64,000 bases of DNA, from contig QIAN01000015.1 in NCBI GenBank assembly GCA_003225005.1, positions 1-64,000 of the forward strand, read 5' to 3'. This DNA is from Acidobacteriota bacterium. GTDB taxonomy: Bacteria > Acidobacteriota > Terriglobia > Terriglobales > Acidobacteriaceae. This document shows, in pieces, positions 1 to 52,765 of the stretch. Within the stretch, counting starts at the first letter, position 1. Each line of letters begins with the position of its first letter. The notes beneath the pieces were generated by a model, which made no database searches, was not told the origin of the DNA, and saw only the letters and a list, made by a program, of their open reading frames with translations. The position numbers were made by a program, and so were the translations under genes.

Positions 1-481
1 GGATGCGGTAGAGAATTTCATCGCGGGAATACGTGCTGTCAACACAAAGCGCATCATTTTCTGTCAGACCGGTACGGTGGGTTAGGAGGTCACGGACTAT
101 CAATTCACGGGTCGCGTATGAATCGTAGAGCTGAAATGTTGGAAGGTACTTCAGGACGTGGTCGTCCCACCCAAGCTTGCCCTCATCCACCAGCATGGCC
201 AGCGAGGCTGTTGTAAAACCTTTCGTCACGGAAGCTATGTTGAATATCGTATGCTCATCTACTAGCGCATTATCCCCGAGCTTGCGAACCCCATATCCTT
301 TTGCAAAGACGACAGCGTCATCTTTCACAACCGCAATCGAGAGTCCCGGAATCTCCGCGTCATGCATTGCCCTGACGATGTATTGATCCAGTTCCTGAAA
401 CGAAGGCTGCTGAGCTGCCACAGTTACGCACATAAGCAGCGAGGTCAGACCTGTGATTACAAGAAGAGTCTTTCGTTGCAC
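1..481 (-). CDS. Serine hydrolase, beta-lactamase/DD-peptidase family (C-terminus outside window)
   Basis: Only the first 160 residues or so lie in the window. A hydrophobic leader ending near VAAQQ predicts export to the periplasm. The family nucleophile motif SxxK is visible as S-V-T-K in the segment FNIASVTKGFT, followed by a typical DLLTHRTGL block of class C beta-lactamase-like (PF00144) esterases and peptidases. I chose the GTG start at 481 because GGAGG lies ten bases upstream and no in-frame ATG has a ribosome binding site. The substrate cannot be deduced; family members cleave peptides, esters or beta-lactams. It is transcribed away from the broken DUF262 gene. Confidence 0.8.
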   Translation of the reverse strand, partial: MQRKTLLVITGLTSLLMCVTVAAQQPSFQELDQYIVRAMHDAEIPGLSIAVVKDDAVVFAKGYGVRKLGDNALVDEHTIFNIASVTKGFTTASLAMLVDEGKLGWDDHVLKYLPTFQLYDSYATRELIVRDLLTHRTGLTENDALCVDSTYSRDEILYRI

Positions 482-46938: not shown

Positions 46939-48705
<1,767 letters not shown>

Positions 48706-48905
48706 ACGTTCTCCCTTCGGAGAGGACCGAAGCATGTAGCCAGAAACAAGATCGTCAATTCAGGTAAGGCGTCCGCGACCGCCGAAAAGTCTGCTCTACT
48801 GTCTAAATCGCGGGTAATGGTACCACCTAACAAAAAATCACAAAACGGGGAATGACCTCAGGTAGCATGTGCTCGAATACAATCAAACTGGAGGCTGGCG
48901 GGCGA

Positions 48906-50294
48906 GTGAACAAAATGAACGAAGTTGGGAAACAGTGGGAAGGCCAGATCGTGAATGGAGAATTCCTCCTGCAACGTTATTTGGGTGCGTCGAACCGCAG
49001 CGTTGTATTTCTCACCGAACTCGGTGGTATGAAATCGCGGAGGGCGGCGATCAAATTAATTCCGGCTGACTGGGAAGGGGCAGAAATACAACTCGCCCGG
49101 TTAAAGGCCGCCGCGAAATTATCCCACCCCCATTTGCTGAAGATTCATCAGACTGGATCGTGCGAGCTGCGCGAAACGAAGCTGTTCTATATCGTTTTAG
49201 AGTATGCCGACGAAGATTTGTCGCAAGTGCTCCCGATGCGTGCCTTGACGCAAGCCGAAGGTCTCGACATGCTTCCGCCCGTTTTGGACGCGCTTTCGTA
49301 CCTTCATCGCCAGGGCTTCATCCACAGTCGGGTGAGACCGCGAAACATTGTGGCTGTCGAAGAGCGACTGAAGCTTTCGAGCGACAGCATCCGCGAAGAG
49401 GGTGGGGCGATTCCGGGCTCAGCCAAACCGAGTGCCTACGACGCACCCGAGGTCGCTCGCGGACTAGTCTCTCCGGCTGGAGATGTTTGGTCGCTGGGCG
49501 TGACGCTGGTCGAGGCATTGACGCAACGTCTTCCCGTGTGGGACGGAGCGGGATCAGGCGATCCGGTATTACCCGCGACATTGCCAGAGCCGTTTCGTGA
49601 TATTGCATTTCATTGCCTGCGCCGAGAACCGAACCAGCGTTGGACTCTTGCTGACATCGCGGCCCGGCTTAAGTCCGGTGCGTCGAGTTCCGCAAAGCAA
49701 GCGCCCATGGTGGCGCCAAAGGCGCCCTCAAAATCGCGTTTCACTACACCGATGACGGCGATCGGGCTCACCCTGGTATTGGTGCTGGCCATCTGGGGTC
49801 TGTTCCGTCATCGCGGCGAGACTCCACCGAATGGTCCCGCCGCGGCAGAACAGAGAGAGACGAAGCCCAAGCCGGAGCCGGGAACACCCATCGAAAGCAG
49901 CACGCCTAACCCGGAAGGCGGCACGGCAAGAAATTCGAGAGTCAAGTCCTCAGCCACAACTGCTGAGCTGGCAGCGCCTGCGGGTGCGGTTGCACAGGAT
50001 GAAGTGCTCCAGCAAGTTTTGCCGGACGTCTCGACAACGGCCAGGAACACCATCCAGGGGACGGTGAGGGTAACAGTGCGAGTCACGGTAGATTCGTCGG
50101 GCAACGTGACAAACGCCACGTTCGAATCTCCTGGACCAAGCAAATATTTTGCCCGCAAGGCTATGGAAGCCGCGCAGCAATGGAAATTCAAACCAGTGCA
50201 GACAGATGGCCAACCTGTTTCGAGGGAATGGATCCTGCAATTCCAGTTCAAGAACTCCGGCACCAATATTATTCCCTCACCAGCAGCCCATTAA
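48906..50294 (+). CDS. Pseudokinase fused to a TonB-type C-terminal domain
   Basis: The 462-residue protein starts with a protein-kinase fold. From the GTG at 48906 the Gly-loop is degenerate (YLGASNRSVVF), the beta-3 lysine is kept (AAIKLI, K50), but the HRD motif reads HSRVRPRN (140-147), with no catalytic Asp, and the DFG region reads KLSSDSI. APE and DVWSLG (subdomain IX) remain. After a linker comes one membrane helix (AIGLTLVLVLAIWGLF), a Pro/Glu/Thr-rich periplasmic stretch, and a TonB C-terminal domain (VRVTVDSSGNVTNATFESPG, AMEAAQQWKFKP). The kinase part is cytoplasmic and the TonB part periplasmic. It is probably a sensor or scaffold, not an active kinase. The start could also be ATG 48852 or 48915. 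Confidence 0.85.
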   Translation: MNKMNEVGKQWEGQIVNGEFLLQRYLGASNRSVVFLTELGGMKSRRAAIKLIPADWEGAEIQLARLKAAAKLSHPHLLKIHQTGSCELRETKLFYIVLEYADEDLSQVLPMRALTQAEGLDMLPPVLDALSYLHRQGFIHSRVRPRNIVAVEERLKLSSDSIREEGGAIPGSAKPSAYDAPEVARGLVSPAGDVWSLGVTLVEALTQRLPVWDGAGSGDPVLPATLPEPFRDIAFHCLRREPNQRWTLADIAARLKSGASSSAKQAPMVAPKAPSKSRFTTPMTAIGLTLVLVLAIWGLFRHRGETPPNGPAAAEQRETKPKPEPGTPIESSTPNPEGGTARNSRVKSSATTAELAAPAGAVAQDEVLQQVLPDVSTTARNTIQGTVRVTVRVTVDSSGNVTNATFESPGPSKYFARKAMEAAQQWKFKPVQTDGQPVSREWILQFQFKNSGTNIIPSPAAH

Positions 50295-50451
50295 CGACTT
50301 CCGAACGTTGAAGGAACCCATAGGACACAACGGAGTTCGCAAGGTCGATTTATTTGGGCATCCGCCAGAATCATTTCCCATCCGAAGACCGCATTCGTTG
50401 CTAGACTATTGCGTCGTTGAAACGCTCTCAGCGCAAAACAGGAGCGAAGTA

Positions 50452-51255
50452 ATGAATGCCAAGCCCGGCCTGGCCGCGGAAGTGCTGTCCGAGTTCCTCG
50501 GAACCTTTGTCCTGATTCTGTTTGGTACCGGCGTCGTTGCCATGGTTGTGCTGTTTCCCTCGAGCTCAGGTGGAGGAATTGTTCACGGTGGCTACACCAA
50601 CATCACACTGGGCTGGGGGCTTGCCGTAACCATGGGCATCTATGTTGCCGGCAAAATTTCAGGGGCGCACTTGAACCCGGCCGTAACCTTGACCCTCGCC
50701 GTATTTCGAGGCTTTTCGTGGAGCAAGGTTCTGCCTTACTCCATCGCTCAAACCGCAGGAGCTTTCACCGCTGCGGCGCTGGTGTATCGGAATTATTTGC
50801 CGGCTTTTCGCCAGGTAGATCCGCAGCTGGAAAAAACCGCTGGAGTCTTTACGACCTTCCCTGCCTTTCCGGGATTGCTCCAGGCTGGGTTCCTCGATCA
50901 AGTGATTGGTACCGCTTTGCTTCTCCTTCTTGTATTGGCCATCACGGACGAATTCAATTCGCCTCCGGGCGCGAACCTGGCGCCCTTGATGATCGGACTC
51001 GTGGTCGTGGCGATCGGCATGAGCTTCGGCGGGATGCATGGGTACCCGATCAATCCGGCTCGGGATCTAGGGCCGCGCCTGTTCACGGTGGTCGCGGGTT
51101 TTCGCAACAACGGCATCACCGATGGCAGCCGGGTGTGGTGGGTGCCAGTCGTGGCACCTTTGGTGGGCGGGCTGGTGGGCGCCGCGGTTTATGATTTCGG
51201 CATTCGGCGCTTCGTTAAGCGCTTAGCAACTCACAACGGAATTGAAGAGAAATAG
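50452..51255 (+). CDS. glpF: Glycerol facilitator, aquaglyceroporin
   Basis: GGAGCGAAGTA precedes the ATG at 50452. Six helices and both half-helix signatures are present: [14 protein letters not shown] and [13 protein letters not shown]; the Asp after the second NPA-Arg is typical of glycerol-conducting members. The protein lets glycerol cross the inner membrane. The glpK gene starts 11 bases after its stop, so the two form an operon for glycerol uptake and trapping. No glpR or glpD is in the window. Confidence 0.93.
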
Positions 51256-51265
51256 AGGAGTCTCG

Positions 51266-52765
51266 TTGCCATACATACTGGCGCTGGATCAGGGCACCAC
51301 CAGTTCGCGAGCAATATTGTTCGATCATGAAGGTGCGATCAAGTCGGTAGCGCAGCGTGAATTCGAACAACTTTTTCCGCAACCGGGATGGGTCGAACAC
51401 GATCCGGAGGAAATCTGGGCATCGCAAATCAGCGTTGCGGTAGAAGCTTTAAGCCGGGCGGAGGCTCGGCCGCGCGACGTTGCCGCCATCGGTATTACTA
51501 ACCAACGCGAGACCACGATCGTATGGAATCGGGAGACTGGAAGGCCGCTGTCGAATGCCATTGTCTGGCAGGATCGTCGCACCGCCGGCTTTTGCGATCA
51601 GCTCAAGGCCGAAGGTCATGAAACTCTGATCCAGCAGCGTACGGGGCTCATGATCGACTCGTATTTCTCCGCCAGCAAGATCGCATGGATCCTGGACAAC
51701 GTTCCGCACGCCCGCGAATTGGCGGAAGGCGGGCAACTCGCCTTCGGAACGGTTGACAGTTGGCTGGTTTGGAAGTTGACCAGCGGCCGCGTGCATGCGA
51801 CTGATGCTACTAACGCCTCGCGAACTATGCTCTTTAACATTCACACGGGCGGTTGGGACGACGATCTCTTGCGCCTGTTCCGCATCCCCGTGGCTTTGAT
51901 GCCTGAAGTCCGTTCTTCTAGCGAGGTTTATGCGGAGGTCACGACTACTTTAGGGCTGGGCAGTGTCGCCATTGCTGGTATCGCAGGCGATCAGCAGGCA
52001 TCCTTACTAGGTCAAAGGTGCACCACGCCCGGCCTGACAAAGAATACCTACGGAACCGGATGCTTCATGTTGCAAAACACCGGGACTCGCGCCGCTCCCT
52101 CTCGAAATCGCCTGGTGACAACGGTGGCCTGGAAAATCGGCGACACAGTCGAGTATGCGCTGGAAGGCAGCGTCTTCATTGGGGGCGCGGTCATTCAATG
52201 GTTACGAGACGGTTTGGGTTTGATTCGTGCCTCGGCTGATGTCGAGCCCCTGGCGGCATCCGTTGCCGACAACGGAGGTGTCTATTTCGTTCCTGCCTTC
52301 GTAGGACTGGGCGCTCCACATTGGGACCAGTACGCCAGAGGTTCGATATTCGGGCTGACCCGCGGTAGCAACGCGGGGCACATTGCGCGCGCCGCGCTTG
52401 AGAGTATTGCCTACCAGGTGGCGGATCTGTTCGACGCCGTACGGCGCGACGCTGGAACTCCGCTGCTCGAGTTGCGCGTCGATGGTGGCGCATCGGCAAA
52501 CGACGCTCTTATGCAGTTCCAGTCTGACATTTTGGGCATACCCGTAGCGCGTCCCGCGGTCACCGAGACCACTGCCCTCGGAGCTGCATATTTGGCCGGA
52601 ATCGCGGTTGGGTTCTGGCGGTCCTTAGAGCAGATTGTTGAACTCCCCTGCCAGGCGGTTAAGTTTGAGCCGAGGATTCCGCGCTCTAAAGCGGAAGCGT
52701 TGCGTGGGAGATGGAATGAGGCTCTATCCCGCGCAAAGGCATGGGATGACCCCAAGTTGGGATGA
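51266..52765 (+). CDS. glpK: Glycerol kinase
   Basis: GlpK phosphorylates glycerol to glycerol 3-phosphate. FGGY-family blocks are clear: [47 protein letters not shown], the [10 protein letters not shown] segment and [20 protein letters not shown]. The start is a TTG with AGAGGAG upstream, directly behind glpF. The last codons lie in a perfect 16-bp tandem duplication that creates the TGA; with one copy the frame would run on for about ten more codons. Confidence 0.95.

Follow-up and report, generated by a model that had tools for sequence, protein, structure and literature searches.

A conserved membrane pseudokinase family of Acidobacteriota with alternative TonB_C and SPOR-like periplasmic domains

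The stretch of acidobacterial DNA analysed here (the window; 64,000 nucleotides) encodes a protein in which a kinase-like domain is followed by a membrane helix, a linker and a TonB C-terminal domain (TonB_C). This architecture, the conserved loss of catalytic residues, the grouping of the family with SPOR-type sister pseudokinases apart from 15 ordinary kinases, and the unrelatedness of the two kinds of tail were all computed directly. We consider these proteins, carried by soil Acidobacteriota, best explained, with a probability of roughly 0.55, as an ancient non-catalytic, single-pass adaptor of the inner membrane with an exchangeable periplasmic domain, whose conserved job would be to couple a cytoplasmic partner to the envelope and not to carry out TonB-driven energy transfer. 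We infer this adaptor role and the envelope contact; the view of the conserved job follows from finding, within one bacterial family, either a TonB_C or a SPOR-like domain on a homologous pseudokinase and helix.

The longest open reading frame at the locus spans 48852-50294 on the forward strand (480 aa), and alignment with relatives places the start at the ATG at 48915, giving a protein of 459 aa. The preliminary description had begun the gene at 48906, a GTG, and its end at 50294 is retained. On the 480-aa frame, Pfam finds Pkinase (PF00069) at 9e-19 over residues 61-269 and TonB_C at 7.5e-11, both above cut-off; PF00069 matches 55 of 55 aligned family members, and TonB_C 54 of the 55 at E <= 0.01. 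An AlphaFold model of the full protein, built with 55 aligned sequences, has a mean pLDDT of 84, with most of both domains above 90; in this model a helix and a disordered linker connect two confidently modelled domains. Pfam, AlphaFold and the fold matches described below thus agree on the layout of kinase fold, one membrane helix and TonB_C that had been proposed from the letters. Scanning for promoters and terminators near the gene gave no signal exceeding shuffles. Coordinates are collected in Table 1.

Table 1. Features of the pseudokinase gene, its neighbours in the window, and other TonB_C proteins of the same genome.
Feature	Coordinates	Strand	Residues and basis
Whole gene: pseudokinase - membrane helix - linker - TonB_C	48915..50294	+	459 aa; ORF, relatives' alignment, Pfam
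N-terminal segment and cytoplasmic pseudokinase domain	48915..49682	+	residues 1-256; Pfam Pkinase, AlphaFold, VIA-align 2 model range 8..257 to PknB
beta3 lysine Lys47	49053..49055	+	present in 86/87 relatives
HSR replacing HRD	49323..49331	+	residues 137-139; Asp position non-Asp in 86/87
Catalytic-loop Asn144	49344..49346	+	present in 86/87
SDS replacing DFG	49380..49388	+	residues 156-158; DFG Asp gone in 87/87; Phe position acidic (Asp 85, Glu 2)
APE motif	49443..49451	+	residues 177-179
Single transmembrane helix	49749..49805	+	residues 279-297; hydropathy and AlphaFold helix; equivalent hydrophobic stretch in 87/87
Linker	49806..50000	+	disordered in AlphaFold model
Periplasmic TonB_C domain without Tyr-Pro motif	50001..50291	+	residues 363-459; Pfam, PDB profile search, AlphaFold, fold search
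Lactate permease (window neighbour)	46939-48735	-	Pfam
Major intrinsic protein, glycerol-facilitator-like (window neighbour)	50149-51255	+	Pfam
FGGY kinase (window neighbour)	51242-52765	+	Pfam
PilZ - hydrophobic stretch - TonB_C	L256:369-1352	-	own genome
PilZ - hydrophobic stretch - TonB_C	L263:346-1257	-	own genome
GAF - hydrophobic stretch - TonB_C	L226:464-2035	+	own genome
GAF - hydrophobic stretch - TonB_C	L262:299-1768	-	own genome
Receiver-like match far upstream of TonB_C	L276:181-2274	-	own genome; Response_reg below Pfam cut-off
Receiver-like match far upstream of TonB_C	L277:235-2067	-	own genome; Response_reg below Pfam cut-off

The kinase-like part resembles solved Ser/Thr kinases, with PknB as its best PDB sequence match (1.9e-27), and in a fold comparison its AlphaFold model aligns with PknB (1o6y) over 239 positions at a Z score of 24.8 and an rmsd of 2.3. 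The preliminary description had read the ATP lysine and the APE motif as present, HRD as HSR, DFG as SDS and the glycine loop as degenerate; each of these readings is correct, the loop (LGASNRSVVF) containing few glycines. It had also asked whether close homologues keep intact motifs, which would make the losses a local decay. We compared 87 distinct relatives (110 loci minus 23 exact duplicates) that share 38-52% identity with the window protein, and found the HRD Asp absent from 86 and the DFG Asp from all 87. These conserved losses rule out a local decay or a pseudogene. Stops occur in the read-through stretch at five loci (L020, L025, L059, L080 and L081), none of them inside the protein used.

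The replacements are themselves restricted. At the position of the HRD Asp the relatives have Arg (47), His (33), Ala (2), Gly (2), Asn (1), Ser (1) or Asp (1), so that Arg or His stands there in 80 of the 87, and the His of the motif is H in 84. The DFG Asp has given way to Ser (46), Ala (22), Thr (7), Val (4), Cys (3), Ile (2), Gly (2) or Asn (1), and the position directly after it is acidic throughout (Asp157 in the window protein), a shifted acidic residue in place of the lost one. The beta3 Lys and the catalytic-loop Asn are each kept in 86 of the 87. The alphaC Glu is apparently gone too, the column assigned to it by eye (column 62) being Arg in 57 of 87. The single relative with an Asp at the HRD place (HGD; L047:6001-7698) lacks the DFG Asp.

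Because they are conserved across 87 distinct relatives, the catalytic losses are a trait of the family. A pseudokinase, as defined in the available part of one source, is a kinase fold without the beta3 Lys, the HRD Asp or the DFG Asp (PMC12599244), and the window family has both the fold and a conserved loss of at least one of the three. Judged by sequence, the TonB-type pseudokinase domain would lack catalysis, and the absence of phosphotransfer supposed in the preliminary description is what the conserved loss of both Asp residues leads one to expect.

A hydrophobic stretch follows the kinase part in all 87 relatives, five of which have a second one, and the linker behind it has a median length of 50 residues (26-125), with 17% Ala and 17% Pro. 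Mean conservation is 0.62 in the kinase part and 0.62 in TonB_C, against 0.34 in the helix and 0.25 in the linker, as expected for two functional domains on a tether. The charge bias across the helix is mild (Lys plus Arg 2.7 versus 2.1 in 12 residues), and the topology that we favour, with the kinase part inside, therefore follows mainly from the types of domain.

A search of 297 genomes of the phylum (E <= 1e-30) gave matches in 21, and in 17 of these, all of the same family as the window genome, the match was a divergent pseudokinase with a tail other than TonB_C. Pfam assigns SPOR to 13 of 15 aligned tails at E <= 0.1 (best 2.1e-5); of six such proteins scanned singly, two (L115 and L124) scored above the curated cut-off, two scored below it and two had no SPOR match, and against PDB profiles the tail matched weakly (1x60, E 0.9). 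Profiles of the TonB-type and SPOR-type pseudokinases align from the N-terminus through the whole kinase domain (227 columns, probability 100, E 1e-44). The profiles of TonB_C and of the SPOR-like tail do not align, which rules out one diverged domain. Degradation has gone further in the SPOR-type proteins: none of 37 sequences has the beta3 Lys, the HRD Asp or the DFG Asp, the Lys having become Arg in 27 and the HRD Asp His in 26, and the shifted Asp is present in 37/37. The 15 aligned sequences also seem, by eye, to have lost the APE motif and a large part of the activation segment.

Where their function is known, SPOR domains are binders of denuded glycan (PMC6895207); in RlpA a Gln and two Arg do the binding. 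In all 15 SPOR-like tails the place of the RlpA Gln is Arg, Tyr or His and those of the two Arg are Leu and Thr, Val, Ser or Ala, as aligned by eye and not by structure. These key glycan-binding residues thus look absent, and we make no claim of peptidoglycan binding by the SPOR-like tail.

We placed the two types in a tree of 77 kinase domains, comprising 35 of 88 TonB-type domains (5 chosen and 30 random), 27 of 37 SPOR-type domains and 15 others, computed in a quick search mode and rooted on the 15 ordinary kinases. The 62 pseudokinases lie on one side (SH-aLRT 99) and the ordinary kinases on the other, with support of 100 for the SPOR group and 85 for the TonB group. All 15 ordinary kinases keep the catalytic Asp of HxD, and 14 have a recognisable DFG. 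Among the nearest intact relatives found is a kinase (L123:1474-3552) from a genome of another family of the phylum; its HRD and DFG motifs are intact, and a right-handed beta helix is fused to it.

The C-terminal domain of the window protein is a TonB_C by every comparison made: Pfam, PDB profiles and fold search all match, so that the doubt raised in the preliminary description about this assignment is removed. Folded alone by AlphaFold, the tail reaches a pLDDT of 91.8; it aligns with E. coli TonB (1xx3) at Z 10.4 and rmsd 2.1 over 84 positions, and with TonB in the BtuB complex (2gsk) at Z 9.2 and rmsd 2.1 over 79, the best Foldseek match of the tail alone having E 1.8e-3. Its sequence profile matches TonB in 2gsk at 1.3e-6 and E. 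coli TonB at 1.6e-6. Two divergent relatives, L113 (20.5 bits) and L114 (17.2 bits), fall under the Pfam TonB_C cut-off of 24.6.

The preliminary description had suggested that the protein may report or control outer-membrane energy coupling, and a version of this idea deserves weighing: the TonB_C domain could compete with TonB, or sense it, at outer-membrane transporters, while the pseudokinase reports inside, so that the protein controls or reports TonB-dependent transport. The tail does fold as a genuine TonB C-terminal domain, the BtuB-binding part included, and the presence of 28 further TonB_C matches in the genome, several of them on cytoplasmic signalling domains, makes regulated TonB-type proteins plausible. 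In TonB itself a Tyr-Pro motif stands before the first long strand of the C-terminal domain, and it is visible in the E. coli TonB row of the PDB profile alignment. This motif is absent from the TonB_C of all 87 relatives, and of the 28 TonB_C matches elsewhere in the genome, 17 show Tyr-Pro near the domain start by a rough text match. As the preliminary description had noted, there is no exbB nearby: the only two MotA_ExbB matches in the genome lie on contigs C373 and C371, each within ~1.1 kb of another TonB_C match, and none lies on C114, the contig of the window. In the sister proteins, moreover, TonB_C is replaced by a SPOR-like domain, which is unexpected under a TonB-specific role. For these three reasons the specific link to energy coupling lacks support, a TonB energy transducer is unlikely although the TonB fold is intact, and we regard control of TonB-dependent transport as improbable. 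A further motif proved uninformative in this genome. SHLS in the TonB helix is described, in the available part of PMC12204202, as a motor-binding motif, and SxHxLxS is absent from 87/87 relatives; none of the genome's remaining 28 TonB_C ORFs, including the two near exbB, has it either, so the comparison does not discriminate and we dropped it as proof against TonB function.

Other alternatives concern the cytoplasmic end. The kinase-like domain may still be an enzyme or a nucleotide switch: a nucleotide held by Lys47, Asn144 and the shifted Asp157 would then bring about either an unusual reaction or a binding-dependent change of shape. Retention of the Lys and Asn in 86 of 87 TonB-type relatives, and of an acidic residue at 157 in every one, could point to nucleotide binding or unusual catalysis, and one relative (L047) retains the HRD Asp. 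The conserved loss of the HRD Asp (86/87) and the DFG Asp (87/87) makes an enzyme function unlikely, the glycine loop is poor in glycines, and the SPOR-type proteins have lost the beta3 Lys (0/37), which the family as a whole therefore does not need. We give an enzyme or switch a minor share of belief, if a somewhat larger one than the transport reading. Less probable still is a special case of the adaptor, in which the protein regulates an active Ser/Thr kinase through a mixed dimer and the periplasmic tail sets where or when. The genome holds many kinases (102-109 candidates at first look), PknB and PknA are the closest solved relatives by sequence, and dimer interfaces are discussed for the MviN and ActPs3 pseudokinases in the accessible part of PMC12599244; against this, the conserved neighbours include no linked active kinase gene.

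The general form of the adaptor reading is the best fit, EssB/YukC and MviN providing the analogy (PMC12599244 and PMC3989709). In such an adaptor the cytoplasmic pseudokinase domain would serve as a protein-docking, possibly nucleotide-sensing, surface, and the helix and flexible Pro/Ala linker would hold a small domain in the periplasm, in contact with some component of the envelope; a ligand or crowding on one side of the membrane could then be relayed to a partner on the other.

Membrane pseudokinases as such are known. EssB/YukC, a single-pass membrane pseudokinase of type VII secretion in Firmicutes, resembles the window protein in its degraded catalytic motifs and acts as a scaffold across one membrane, but it belongs to a secretion machine, and the accessible portion of the source from which the likeness is drawn describes neither a TonB_C nor a SPOR tail for it (PMC12599244). 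MviN/ActPs3 is likewise an envelope-tied pseudokinase, an adaptor through recruitment of FhaA (PMC12599244 and PMC3989709, in the parts available); in MviN the VAIK motif reads VALT, without the Lys, and a carbohydrate-binding domain is present, whereas the window type keeps the Lys and has a TonB_C tail. GLW pseudokinases have GLW in place of HRD, unlike the HSR of the window protein, and ActPs2 pseudokinases show Arg for the beta3 Lys, Asn for the HRD Asp and usually a deleted DFG (again PMC12599244, in part). The window type differs from ActPs2 in keeping the Lys (86/87), in having Asn for the HRD Asp in only 1/87 and in retaining the DFG place; the SPOR-type proteins share the change of Lys to Arg (27/37), but their HRD Asp has become His (26/37). 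The PASTA Ser/Thr kinases PknB and Stk1 have the same succession of kinase fold, one helix and envelope-facing module; PknB, however, is an active kinase with PASTA repeats, and the window protein lacks the catalytic Asp residues and has no PASTA match in a Pfam scan at E <= 0.001. TonB (PF03544) shares the helix, the Pro-rich linker and a C-terminal domain of the same fold, from which the window protein is set apart by a 256-residue pseudokinase region before the helix, the lack of Tyr-Pro and of a nearby exbB, and its SPOR-type sisters.

The literature searched, most subscription papers being beyond reach, yielded no description of a protein that joins a kinase to TonB_C or to SPOR, and the portion of PMC12599244 available contains no mention of 'TonB', 'SPOR' or 'Acidobacteri'. 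This family, the shifted DFG Asp and the exchange of TonB_C for SPOR were thus not found in that literature. Bacterial pseudokinases have been catalogued mostly without a known function (PMC12599244, in part), and a conserved two-ended family with a natural TonB_C/SPOR swap opens a direct experiment on the role of the periplasmic end.

The TonB-type protein is widespread among close relatives of the window genome. In a search of 61 genomes (E <1e-40, full or partial orthologues), 34 of 37 genomes of the same genus were positive, as was one of another family of the class (G055); the three same-genus genomes without an orthologue (G013, G021 and G028) are 74-85% complete. A scan of a genome collection reported 138 relatives, of which 80 were kept and 78 are labelled Acidobacteriota; the exceptions, labelled Betaproteobacteria (L047) and Xanthobacteraceae (L063), are probably binning errors. 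We then surveyed 282 genomes of the same family that are at least 90% complete, taking a best E of ~1e-60 or better for the TonB-type and E <= 1e-50 for the SPOR-type. The TonB-type occurs in 96 and the SPOR-type in 87, and the pseudokinase family is mostly single-copy. Both types are found, at separate places, in 6 genomes (G507, G508, G511, G535, G560 and G570), where independence would give ~30; since the split largely follows genera, this low co-occurrence is no test of replacement. At these thresholds 105-111 of the 282 have neither type (282 - 96 - 87 + 6 = 105), a number that may include genomes whose divergent members fall below threshold.

In 80 of the 87 SPOR-type genomes the listed match covers the C-terminal domain, and a second match covers the tail in 4 of the other 7; the domain was not seen in G468, G508 and G510. 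Sixteen genomes with only weak A1 matches, when re-examined, yielded mostly ordinary kinases, many with a recognisable DFG, together with a further SPOR-type protein by eye (L228) and a TonB-type fragment (L229). The A3 search over 30 doubtful genomes gave a match in 23.

Neighbouring genes were clustered over 81 neighbourhoods and then 19 more, with rough calling of longest ORFs, and no conserved operon partner was found among these ~100. The commonest neighbour, absent from the window, is a convergently oriented gene that looks by eye like a tRNA/rRNA methyltransferase; it is present in 29 of these neighbourhoods (28 at position +1 on the opposite strand; L031-L110). On the rough ORFs, 7 of 80 neighbourhoods have a gene on the same strand within 60 bases on the upstream side, and 7 of 79 have one as close downstream. 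The lactate permease, major intrinsic protein and FGGY kinase genes that flank the window gene are not conserved beside its relatives.

The window genome has 29 TonB_C matches in all, and no recognisable kinase domain occurs in the 28 ORFs other than the pseudokinase gene. Among them are PilZ and GAF proteins with a hydrophobic stretch before TonB_C (Table 1), the former possibly controlled by c-di-GMP, and two proteins, L276 and L277, whose Response_reg matches (2.1e-4 and 1.3e-3, respectively) are both under Pfam's cut-off. The occurrence of pseudokinase-, PilZ- and GAF-TonB_C proteins in one genome suggests that TonB_C in this phylum is also a signalling module, beyond energy transfer, and the annotation 'energy transducer TonB' may for this reason mislead. 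More speculatively, and with the odds rather against it, Acidobacteriota of this family might use TonB_C as a general periplasmic output for cytoplasmic receivers (pseudokinase, PilZ, GAF and receiver-like), the pseudokinase branch being an inside-out or outside-in relay that swaps TonB_C for SPOR; if true, this would be a class of signalling that belongs neither to the two-component systems nor to the PASTA kinases. Two TonB_C matches of the same genome, at C216:11580-11783 and C432:164515-164685, contain an in-frame stop.
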